DNA of 64,000 bases from Terriglobia bacterium (GTDB taxonomy: Bacteria > Acidobacteriota > Terriglobia > Terriglobales > Acidobacteriaceae), in assembly GCA_020073495.1 (NCBI GenBank), contig JAIQFD010000002.1:372001-436000 (forward strand). Direction: 5' to 3'. Below, in pieces: positions 17,597 to 22,191 of this stretch. The notes under the pieces were generated by a model, which saw nothing but the letters and a program-made list of their open reading frames with translations, was not told where the DNA came from and did no database searches. A program made the translations under genes and the position numbers. Each line of letters begins with the position of its first letter. The first letter of the stretch is position 1.

Positions 17597-17693
17597 TGGC
17601 AAGTCGCGAGTGCCGGGTACCGAATTGTGAAATGTGCTCGCAACTCGGGACTCGCAAGTCGGTACTTCCTACGATATATTCGCCCAACTCAGG

Positions 17694-18935
17694 ATGGCAC
17701 CCAAGCTCTACCCGCGAACCACGCTGGCCCTGCTGACCGCAATCAATTTCATCAATTACATCGACCGCTCAGTGCTGTTCGCAGTGCAGCCGCTGATCCA
17801 GGAGGAGTTCCGGCGAAGCGACCGCGCGTTCGGGTTCCTGACCACCGCGTTCTTCTTCTCCTACATGTTCTTCGCGCCGGTGGCGGGCGTGCTGGCGGAC
17901 CGCTATCCGCGGCGGATCATTATCGTGACCGGCATCGCCGTCTGGAGCGGCGCGACGCTGCTGACCGGGGTGACGCACGAGTTTTCGACCCTGCTCATCC
18001 GGCACACCATCGTGGGCATCGGCGAGGCCAGCTATGCGGCCATTGCGCCGGCATTCATCGCCGACCTGTTTCCCGAGCACAAGCGCGGGCGGATGCTGTC
18101 CATCTTCTACCTGGCCATCCCGGTGGGCACGGCGGTGGGCTACGTGGTCGGGGGCCACCTGGGGCACCATTACGGCTGGCGCACGCCTTTCTACGTCGCC
18201 GCCGCACCGGGCTTTGTGCTGGCGGCGCTCATGTCGCTGGTGCCGGAGCCGCGGCGTGGCAGCCACGATCTGCTCGAGGAGACCGCCGAGCGGGCGACCT
18301 TGTGGGGACTTGCCCGTAACGGGGCGTTCTGGAGCGCCAGCCTGGGCATGGCCATGATGACCTTCGCGCTGGGCGGCATGCAGGTGTGGATGCCCACCTT
18401 CCTCTCGCGCATGCGCGCCATGCCGCTGGACCGCGCGGACTGGTTCTTTGGCGTCAGCATAGCCGTTAATGGAGTGGTGGCGACGCTTTTCGGCGGATGG
18501 CTGGGCGACCGGTTGCTCCGGCGAACTTCCGCGGCGTATTACTTTGTCTCGGCCGTGGGCATGGCGATCGGGGTGCCTTTGATGTTCGCCGCGATCTATG
18601 GCACCGGGGCCTTGATGTTTCCGGCGATCGTGGCTGCGGAATTCTTTTTGCTGGTCAACACGGGCCCATTGAATGCGGCCGTGGTGAACTCGGTGGGAGC
18701 CCACATCCGCTCCAGCGCCATCGCCGTGAACCTGTTTGTCATCCACCTGCTGGGCGACGCGTTCTCGCCCACGCTGATGGGCTGGATCTCCGACAAAGCG
18801 AACCTGCAAACCGCGTTCCTCTCCGCCATCTTCGCCATCGCCCTTTCCACCGCGATCTTGTTTTACGGGATGCGATTCGCCCCGAAATTGCGACCGGAGC
18901 AGCTGGCGGCGAATCCAACCGGGACAGGACACTGA
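17694..18935 (+). CDS. MFS transporter, Spinster-like
   Basis: A 413-residue major facilitator with 12 predicted helices. The start ATG at 17694 gives a normal N-terminus (MAPKLYPRTTLALLTAINF); an extra in-frame extension to 17634 is improbable. The first helices contain NFINYIDRSVLF, and the loop 2-3 motif is GVLADRYPRR (consensus GxxxDRxGRR); IGEASYAAIAPAFIADLFP is characteristic of the Spinster/sphingosine-phosphate-like subgroup. It sits in the inner membrane; substrate is unknown. Its TGA overlaps the ATG of the downstream glycosyltransferase by one base, so the two are coupled. Confidence 0.85.
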   Translation: MAPKLYPRTTLALLTAINFINYIDRSVLFAVQPLIQEEFRRSDRAFGFLTTAFFFSYMFFAPVAGVLADRYPRRIIIVTGIAVWSGATLLTGVTHEFSTLLIRHTIVGIGEASYAAIAPAFIADLFPEHKRGRMLSIFYLAIPVGTAVGYVVGGHLGHHYGWRTPFYVAAAPGFVLAALMSLVPEPRRGSHDLLEETAERATLWGLARNGAFWSASLGMAMMTFALGGMQVWMPTFLSRMRAMPLDRADWFFGVSIAVNGVVATLFGGWLGDRLLRRTSAAYYFVSAVGMAIGVPLMFAAIYGTGALMFPAIVAAEFFLLVNTGPLNAAVVNSVGAHIRSSAIAVNLFVIHLLGDAFSPTLMGWISDKANLQTAFLSAIFAIALSTAILFYGMRFAPKLRPEQLAANPTGTGH

Positions 18936-20697: not shown

Positions 20698-21225
20698 TTA
20701 TTTCGTGGGCTCCATCTGGAGCGTGTTGTTGAAGATGTTGAAGTAGTTGAAAAGTCCGATCGCGACCGCCAACTCGACGATCTCTCCCTCGTCGTAGTGC
20801 TTGGAAAGCTCGGACCAGAAGGCGTCGTCGACCGCCTTGGAATCGATCGTCATACGTTCCGCCAGCTCGAGGGCCGCCTTTTCCCGGGGCGAAAAATCGG
20901 ATCGCGTCCGGAAATCGAAAAGATTCCGGATCTGCTCTTCGCTCCATCCTTGGCGTCCTGCCAGGACGCTGTGCGAGGCCAGTCAATACTCGCAGTGGTT
21001 GATCTGCGAGACCCGCACAAAGAGGAGTTCCTTGAGCTTGATACCGGTGGTGCCGGTGCCCATGACCGCCTTGAAATGATCGATCATGGTCTTCACGATG
21101 TGGGGCCGATGGGCCACGGTGCGGAACATGTTGGGGATGTTGCCGCGCTCCTTCAGAAAGGCGTCGAAGATGGCCTGGACCTGCTCATCGACTTGGGAGC
21201 GGTCGAGCCGGGAGATTCTTGACAT
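20698..21225 (-). CDS. AhpD-like (carboxymuconolactone decarboxylase family) protein with in-frame TGA: probable selenoprotein
   Basis: The frame from 21225 to the TAA at 20698-20700 is 175 codons with one in-frame TGA at 20983-20985 (codon 81). The protein is an AhpD/CMD-fold peroxidase-like redox enzyme. The TGA sits exactly where the family has the second cysteine of its CxxC-x3-H site: NHCEY-(TGA)-LASHS, i.e. C78-x-x-U81 with H85. The 94 codons after the TGA continue the family (SEEQIRNLFDF, then an ELAVAIGLFNYFNIFNN end). A SECIS-like hairpin follows the TGA. I read it as a selenocysteine protein rather than a pseudogene. The start ATG 21225 lacks a clear ribosome-binding site. Sec machinery is not in the window. 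Confidence 0.78.
20953..20969 (-). promoter_or_regulatory. SECIS-like hairpin downstream of the in-frame TGA
   Basis: On the coding (minus) strand, 13 nt after the TGA, GCGTCCT (20969-20963), loop GGC and AGGACGC (20959-20953) form a perfect 7-bp stem. The apical loop begins with GG and lies 20 nt from the TGA. This fits the known bacterial SECIS pattern: upper stem of at least 4 bp, a G in the first two loop positions, and 16-37 nt spacing. Confidence 0.65.
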
Positions 21226-21341: not shown

Positions 21342-21689
21342 CTACTTGGTGAACGCCGCGATGGCGGTCGCTTCGTCGTCCTTGACGTCGAAAACGGTGT
21401 ACAGCTTGGTGATCTGGAGCAGGTCGTGCACCTTCTTGGTCAGGTTGAGCAGCTTGAGCTCACCGCCCTGGTTACGAACGGTGGTGAAGGCGCTGACCAA
21501 CTCGCCGATGCCCGAGCTGTCGATGTAGGTGACATCGCCGAGGTTCAGCAGGATCTTCTTGCTCCCCTTGCCGACCAGGTCGCGGACGGCATCGCGCAAG
21601 ACAACGCTGCCCTCCCCGAGGGTGATGCGTCCGCTCAGGTCCACGATCGTCACGCCGTCCATCTGCCGTGTGCTGGCCTTCATCGTCAC
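21342..21689 (-). CDS. Anti-sigma factor antagonist (STAS domain)
   Basis: A 115-residue single STAS domain, the usual size of SpoIIAA/RsbV proteins. The phospho-acceptor region is VTYIDSSGIGELVSAF, with the serine in DSSG that a partner kinase phosphorylates. GTG 21689 is preferred as start because AGGAGG lies 7 nt upstream and GTGA overlaps the stop of the kinase gene; ATG 21683 is the alternative. The unphosphorylated form would bind the RsbW-like kinase encoded just upstream and release a sigma factor. The sigma factor itself is not adjacent. Confidence 0.88.
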   Translation of the reverse strand: MTMKASTRQMDGVTIVDLSGRITLGEGSVVLRDAVRDLVGKGSKKILLNLGDVTYIDSSGIGELVSAFTTVRNQGGELKLLNLTKKVHDLLQITKLYTVFDVKDDEATAIAAFTK

Positions 21690-22135
21690 TTGGATTCCTC
21701 CTTGGTGCCCGCGGGCGTCCCGCCGGCCACCTTCTTGATCAAGGTAATTTCGCTTCCCGGGTCCAAGATGCGGATGCGCACCTCGTCCATGAATGCACGC
21801 ATGAGAAAGATCCCCCGGCCGGACTGCTTGAGCAGGTTCTCCGGCGCGAGCGGATCGGGGATGCTGTTCAAATCCACCCCCCTGCCCTGGTCGGTGATCC
21901 GTATGACCAGCTCTCCCCCGGTGTTCTCGTAAGAGAGGGTCATTTTTTTCTTCGGATCATATGCGTTTCCGTGGAGGACGGCGTTGACCGCCGCCTCCCG
22001 GACCGCCATCGAGATCCTCTGACACTCGTCCTCGTCGAAGCCGGCTTTGGCTGCGAGCTGAAGAGAGAGTTCCTCCGCCTTGTTTACGCTGTCTAAAGTC
22101 GACTCGAGCGTGTAAGAGACCCGGTTCCCGGTCAT
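21686..22135 (-). CDS. Anti-sigma regulatory factor, RsbW-like serine kinase
   Basis: About 149 residues of a GHKL/HATPase_c domain. The N box is MAVREAAVNAVLHGNAYDP (metal-binding Asn/His), the G1 box ITDQGRGVDL and the G2 box SGRGIFLMRAFMDEV. These anti-sigma kinases bind a sigma factor and phosphorylate the STAS antagonist, here encoded immediately downstream with a 4-bp overlap. ATG 22135 is chosen; an in-frame TTG at 22141 is possible. Cytoplasmic. Target likely a SigB/SigF-type stress sigma factor, not seen here. Confidence 0.88.
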   Translation of the reverse strand: MTGNRVSYTLESTLDSVNKAEELSLQLAAKAGFDEDECQRISMAVREAAVNAVLHGNAYDPKKKMTLSYENTGGELVIRITDQGRGVDLNSIPDPLAPENLLKQSGRGIFLMRAFMDEVRIRILDPGSEITLIKKVAGGTPAGTKEESK

Positions 22136-22191
22136 TTTCAAGAAGCTTTACCGTCCACTGTCGGCAGTCGCTGGAGCGAGTGTCTCCCGGG

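Follow-up and report, generated by a model that had tools for sequence, protein, structure and literature searches.

The window analysed here is a stretch of 64,000 nucleotides, and its minus strand carries a frame (21225-20698) of 80 codons, one TGA, a further 94 codons and a closing TAA. This translation agrees with the initial annotation, in which the frame had been described as open for 175 codons except for the TGA at codon 81. The ORF obtained from a standard gene caller at the gene is 80 amino acids long, the truncated product that had been foreseen. The TGA stands in the context NHC78EY-TGA81-LASH85 (NHCEY-U-LASHS if selenocysteine, Sec or U, is read), which places C78-x-x-U81-x3-H85 at the CxxC-x3-H site of AhpD proteins, as had been proposed. 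The features of the gene, with the evidence for each, are as follows.

20698..21225, minus strand: predicted AhpD-like selenoprotein gene, 175 codons with TGA as Sec, then TAA (translation, profile matches, homologue alignment, structure model)
20983..20985, minus strand: in-frame TGA, codon 81, predicted to be read as selenocysteine, the second residue of CxxU (translation; TGA or Cys in homologues)
20992..20994, minus strand: Cys78 codon (TGC), putative resolving thiol (translation; Cys in 68 of 68 aligned TGA genes)
20971..20973, minus strand: codon of His85 (CAC), by homology the histidine of the proton relay (kept in 62 of the 68 TGA genes aligned; PMC3141380)
21028..21030, minus strand: codon of Glu66, by homology the glutamate of the proton relay (the same residue in 27 of 27 rows; spaced like Glu36/Cys51 in PA0269)

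Family, fold and known relatives

The read-through protein matches the Pfam family CMD / AhpD-like (PF02627) with 49.2 bits, over the gathering cut-off of 23. Against TIGR01926 (peroxidase-related enzyme) it scores 79.0 bits, 2.8 below the cut-off of 81.8, and it is therefore filed as AhpD-like and not scored as a TIGR01926 member; among its relatives, 8 of the 9 scanned orthologues lie over this cut-off, with L044 (73.8) and the paralogue L087 (75.0) under it. The match to NF053654 (GroundWater_YciW, a YciW-related (seleno)protein) is nearly full-length, but at 91.5 bits it is far below the curated equivalog cut-off of 310, as are the matches of 10 scanned relatives. A structure model of the read-through protein has the AhpD fold (mean pLDDT 86.8), and its best PDB fold match is 3c1l (TM 0.86), the antioxidant defence protein Mlr4105 of Mesorhizobium loti. 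This is the nearest solved fold and matches over the whole length, although identity in the aligned chains is 25-27% and the entry title names no Sec.

The best PDB sequence matches are to the AhpD-like protein PA0269 of Pseudomonas aeruginosa (2ijc, 2o4d), which has Cys instead of Sec and a shorter chain than the window protein. The available text of PMC3141380 gives relay residues for comparison from both PA0269 and M. tuberculosis AhpD, and the proton relay of PA0269 (Glu36, Cys48, Tyr50, Cys51 and His55) has the same spacing as E66, C78, Y80, U81 and H85 of the window protein. The AhpD-like pattern of Glu, Cys, Tyr/His, Cys(Sec) and His is found throughout the 27 close-orthologue rows, window included, in which E66, C78, Y80 and H85 are invariant and position 81 is U or C (U being read as C for this comparison).

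This selenoprotein family has been known since 2005, and the window gene is a further member of it. In that year 27 AhpD-like COG2128 sequences with CxxU were reported from the Sargasso Sea (PMC1088965); a 2006 table has a row for AhpD-like with 2, and the same source lists 4 selenoproteins of 3 families for Acidobacteria, which its available text does not name (PMC1794560); and the 2008 GOS survey counts 299 sequences as "AhpD-like 1" (PMC2398784). The statement in the initial annotation that such proteins are known from metagenomes is borne out by the 2005 and 2008 papers, in the text available from each, and AhpD-like selenoproteins also appear in reviews of 2022 and 2026 (PMC9312934, PMC13188914). 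As these sources describe the AhpD-like selenoproteins (COG2128/TIGR01926), the window gene shares with them the domain, the CxxU motif and a SECIS-like hairpin after the TGA, and differs from those of 2005 and 2008 in host group, which is probably Acidobacteriota for the window gene. Our literature searches, which also covered the available text of PMC12013277, turned up no paper that names these orthologues in Acidobacteriota. What is added here to the known family is a well-supported group of orthologues that recurs in many related genomes.

Homologues and the SECIS-like hairpin

Matches to the read-through protein were found in 52 of 61 genomes (its own and 60 relatives). Of 114 fetched loci, 110 were aligned; BLAST found no match for L081, L113 and L142, and L137 could not be aligned across codon 81. 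Ten additional loci were retrieved and are outside every count. In the 110 aligned matches, which include the window gene and one duplicate (L138, of L048), codon 81 is TGA in 68, TGC in 32, TGT in 8 and Ala in 2, and 107 of the 109 distinct aligned loci, window gene included, have TGA or Cys, the remaining 2 having Ala; L138 was removed from the hairpin counts and from the Cys count. The match table has about 141 rows, about 31 of which, none marked TGA, lie outside the fetched set. Its 69 rows marked TGA were all fetched, and 67 of them, the window's own included, were aligned and carry the TGA at codon 81 without exception; the TGA rows missed by BLAST, L081 and L113, both contain the CxxU motif. 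At identities of at least 45%, TGA is found at codon 81 in 24 loci, again with the window's own. Cys occupies the codon in homologues L032, L033, L051 and L053, and L051-L053 are 56-68% identical to the window protein. On a quick tree of 28 rows, several of whose forks are unresolved, two changes of the Sec/Cys label are required.

Comparison with the same-genus copy gives 9, 4 and 30 differences at first, second and third codon positions before the TGA and 14, 12 and 32 after it, mostly third-position changes in both halves, and the 3' flank is identical at 69 of 200 positions in an ungapped comparison. The corresponding pN/pS is 0.125 before the TGA and 0.284 after it, and for 11 other homologues the ranges are 0.303-0.471 on its 5' side and 0.291-0.430 on its 3' side, values that come from ungapped comparison with synonymous sites near saturation in most cases. 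These patterns indicate purifying selection on both parts of the frame, the 94 codons past the TGA as well as the 80 that precede it. The family-like sequence that had been noted past the TGA can be aligned to homologues, and the homologue check proposed at the outset, with TGA or Cys kept at codon 81 and the downstream part conserved, left the original reading standing.

Downstream of the TGA lies the following element.

20953..20969, minus strand: bacterial SECIS-like hairpin, 7-bp stem, loop GGC at 20960-20962 (stem search, covariation; fits the bSECIS constraints in the available text of PMC13188914)

The stem is perfect over its 7 bp, GCGTCCT (20969-20963) pairing with AGGACGC (20959-20953), with 13 nt between TGA and stem and 20 nt between TGA and loop; the stem, loop and spacings given in the initial annotation match these coordinates. 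The constraints printed in PMC13188914 are a loop of 3-9 nt, a stem of 4-16 bp, G in the first two loop bases, a spacing of 16-37 nt and an MFE of at most -7.5. The hairpin lies within them, with its 3 nt loop GGC, 7 bp, 20 nt and a folding energy of -9.9 kcal/mol for the 17 nt by themselves, the longer stretch having a competing fold: 45 nt including the TGA, folded freely, prefer a pairing other than the SECIS stem, at -15.6 kcal/mol. For the window gene the total folding energy past the TGA is not below that of synonymous recodings (z -0.21), and by this measure 2 of 24 close orthologues reach the 0.05 level; over all genes the mean z is -0.95 for TGA (n=68) versus 0.32 for non-TGA genes (n=41). 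Total folding energy is uninformative as a SECIS test for the window gene, whereas a position-specific stem test with synonymous recoding is informative. By the latter, the hairpin score of the window gene is reached in 1 of 1000 recodings, and 56 of 68 TGA genes reach the 0.05 level versus 0 of 41 non-TGA genes.

The chance level was taken from the window itself, on both strands, with 300 bases at each end excluded and G required in the first two loop bases. Among its 1588 TGA triplets, 36 are followed by a hairpin scoring at least 6 and 15 by one scoring at least 7; restricting the count to TGAs flanked on each side by 60 or more open codons leaves 102, just 2 of which, the TGA of the window gene among them, have a hairpin scoring at least 6. 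The other of the two (17771, minus strand) lies in a frame antisense to ORF 17634-18935 (plus strand), which looks like a transporter gene. A hairpin alone is not rare (about 2%), so the significance comes from the homology of both halves together with conservation and covariation.

Hairpins scoring at least 6 follow the codon in 60 of 68 TGA genes versus 1 of 41 non-TGA genes of the first sample (23 of 24 versus 0 of 4 at identities of at least 45%), and in the second sample, of 28 loci, a hairpin was found in 15 of 15 TGA genes versus 1 of 13 non-TGA genes. In the alignment of the 24 TGA orthologues, 97.0% of cells pair along the 7-bp stem, both sides have changed at 5 of the 7 stem pairs (1 of 500 shuffles as high), and there are 17 double-change cells where shuffling gives 4.3 on average (none of 500 shuffles reached 17); when the partner is slid by 1-3 columns, pairing drops to 31.5-58.9%. 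The conserved stem is absent from one close TGA orthologue, L026, and a score of at least 6 is missing in 8 of the 68 TGA genes. The non-TGA genes that do reach this score are L088 in the first sample and L170 in the second.

Some further observations concern this region. In L170, a TGC (Cys) AhpD-like gene whose genome (G220) has selA, a 6-bp hairpin with loop GGC stands at the SECIS position; possibly this gene has undergone a recent Sec-to-Cys change and the hairpin is a fossil SECIS. A distant AhpD-like TGA subgroup (L098, L107, L110, L111, L114 and L121; PYU-LDSHAYFLR and similar) has no score-6 hairpin in the tested range, and its SECIS may have another geometry. Rfam gave nothing meaningful at the site, its three matches all being far below their gathering scores; one, a miRNA match on the stem itself but on the opposite strand, was set aside as chance.

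Selenocysteine machinery and gene neighbourhood

The source genome (8 contigs, 3.70 Mb, listed completeness 100%) was searched for selA, selB, selC and selD, the refuting test that the initial annotation had set beforehand. It contains selA (566 bits), selB (337.1 bits, plus a C-terminal part), selD (376.3 bits, with an in-frame TGA) and one tRNA typed as SeC by ARAGORN, with anticodon TCA (UCA) and 65.5 bits in Rfam; the host machinery of a bacterial selenoprotein (SelA, SelB, SelD and tRNA-Sec) is present. Two further genes of the genome bear on selenium use.

G000:C4:415672-416595, plus strand: selD, locus L018 (one in-frame TGA, at position 41 of the translated stretch, context AAGUASK)
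G000:C4:574641-575138, plus strand: second AhpD-like gene, locus L087 (TGA at the same site, 8-bp hairpin with loop GTC, convergent to selB)

From its in-frame TGA, selD appears to be a selenoprotein gene itself. A convergent AhpD-like/selB pair within 300 bases of each other was observed in 8 of 45 genomes with selB over the cut-off (G000, G004, G005, G007, G010, G011, G012 and G015), and in G007, G010 and G011 the selB-convergent gene has Cys instead of Sec. At L037 (G044:C141:9143-9655, plus strand), 34 bases lie between the end of the match to the window gene and the match to selA, which is convergent to it.

Across genomes, a TGA match was found in 35 of 47 with selA or selB over the cut-off versus 2 of 14 without, and at a completeness of at least 90% in 31 of 40 versus 0 of 8; these counts accept any AhpD-like match, weak ones included, and the Fisher test ignores shared ancestry. 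The two TGA matches without selA or selB over the cut-off are in G048 (73% complete) and G050 (54% complete). In G001, the same-genus relative with TGA, selB was found and selA was not. In a class sample of 200 genomes, 34 have a match at E<=1e-40 and 24 a close orthologue (E<=1e-70), 7 of these 24 being also in the first sample. Fifteen of the close orthologues have TGA, all in genomes with selA, and nine have Cys, eight in genomes without selA and one (G020) with it. Inspection of this second sample covered 28 of 30 loci, the other 2 being already in the first set, and left out 7 of 37 match rows, which had no locus. Among the other 10 genomes of the class sample, which have weaker matches, TGA with selA occurs in G124 and G195, and Cys in G218 and G136 (without selA) and in G068 and G220 (with selA); G063, G097, G186 and G128, all with selA, are marked TGA by the class-sample search. 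Cys forms therefore occur in genomes with selA, namely G020, G068 and G220.

Two conserved genes lie upstream.

21342..21689, minus strand: STAS-domain protein (anti-sigma antagonist type), conserved upstream neighbour (Pfam STAS; adjoins the gene in 19 of 28 loci)
21686..22141, minus strand: HATPase_c_2 protein (RsbW-type anti-sigma kinase), conserved upstream neighbour (Pfam HATPase_c_2; adjoins the gene in 19 of 28 loci)

The 19 loci comprise 18 TGA forms and 1 Cys form, and the pair is upstream on the same strand in all except L041, where it is inverted. At nine loci (L026, L032, L033, L036, L037, L040, L043, L044 and L053), three of them Cys forms, the flanking sequence examined, about 1.5 kb in most cases, showed no such pair. 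A shared operon of the pair and the gene was not accepted, given the 116 bases between STAS and the gene and the failure to find the pair at these nine loci; the neighbourhood may be inherited gene order. Where the STAS neighbour was found in family f1 relatives, it is about 80-96% identical, above the identity of the AhpD-like protein itself. A convergent glycosyltransferase follows the gene in 11 of 28 loci.

Predicted selenocysteine at codon 81 and its alternatives

The apparent stop of this small redox enzyme gene, carried by a soil-type bacterium, almost certainly encodes selenocysteine. The explanation that we hold with very high confidence is a 175-residue AhpD-like (COG2128/TIGR01926-type) thiol oxidoreductase whose UGA81 would be translated as Sec by means of the hairpin and SelB. 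The sequence evidence for it consists of the conserved UGA/Cys pair, the co-varying SECIS-like hairpin, coding selection past the UGA and the Sec machinery, together with the predicted fold; it is from these that we infer actual Sec insertion at codon 81. SelB with Sec-tRNA(Sec) would bind the hairpin, whose stem begins 13 nt past the UGA, and deliver Sec at that codon, and when selenium is absent the product would be the 80-residue fragment. The read-through protein would fold as an all-helical AhpD-type domain. The fold match and the relay spacing of PA0269 suggest that the U81 selenolate, helped by Glu66, Tyr80 and His85, makes the attack on the substrate, a hydroperoxide or a compound of disulfide type, and that Cys78 then resolves it as an Se-S bond, to be reduced by a cellular reductant; the order in which U81 and C78 act is proposed on this basis, and so are substrate and reductant.

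An otherwise ordinary AhpD gene of the Cys type that shows a nonsense change, whether as a pseudogene or through sequencing error, would fit the Cys homologues at the same codon (L032, L033, L051 and L053). Such a change would hardly place TGA at that codon in 24 loci of at least 45% identity, nor leave purifying selection after the TGA and a hairpin that co-varies, and conservation practically refutes this reading, which we regard as having a negligible chance of being right. The TGA could also be a true stop, the functional product being an 80-residue N-terminal piece, perhaps with a separate downstream product. The 80-aa ORF of the standard caller agrees with this and is also what the Sec model expects without selenium, but His85 and the C-terminal helices of the fold come after the TGA, and the codons there are conserved in the same frame; we consider a true stop very improbable. 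UGA can in general be misread as another amino acid, and a changed code or ordinary read-through might insert Cys, Trp or some other residue here. However, of the window's 88 frames that reach 250 codons (mechanical frames, not all of them genes), TGA closes 46 and so appears to be an ordinary stop, the Sec machinery is present, and TGA genes track selA/selB, which together leave this reading with almost no likelihood.

The remaining alternative accepts a selenoprotein and places its main reaction elsewhere than in hydroperoxide reduction, for example in reductive dehalogenation of the Bmp8 type or in a redox switch for RsbW/STAS. The debrominase Bmp8 (6ohi, 6ohj) is indeed among the sequence and fold matches, and an RsbW-type kinase and a STAS protein adjoin the gene in 19 of 28 loci. 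The nearest sequence and fold matches, however, are AhpD-like proteins described as antioxidant, peroxidase-related or uncharacterised, while inherited gene order may suffice to explain the RsbW/STAS pair, which was not found in the flanks of 9 of 28 loci and is inverted in one. We judge such a reaction unlikely, though plausible enough to be kept in view. More speculative, and to our minds improbable, is a lineage-wide selenium-dependent stress circuit in Acidobacteriota, with several AhpD-type selenoproteins per genome, one tied to RsbW/STAS by gene order and another convergent to selB, in which selenium supply or peroxide load would be sensed via U81 and passed to the general stress response.

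With selenocysteine as the preferred reading of codon 81, the truncation of the gene at 80 residues by a standard caller implies that selenium use in the phylum may be under-counted. The Sec, CxxC and TxxC forms stand side by side in genomes with and without selA, and they offer a natural series for asking what selenium buys an AhpD-like enzyme. Eight close orthologues in selA-lacking genomes (L148, L150, L151, L152, L155, L159, L160 and L164) have Thr at 78 and Cys at 81, which suggests that the residue at position 81 is the indispensable one.
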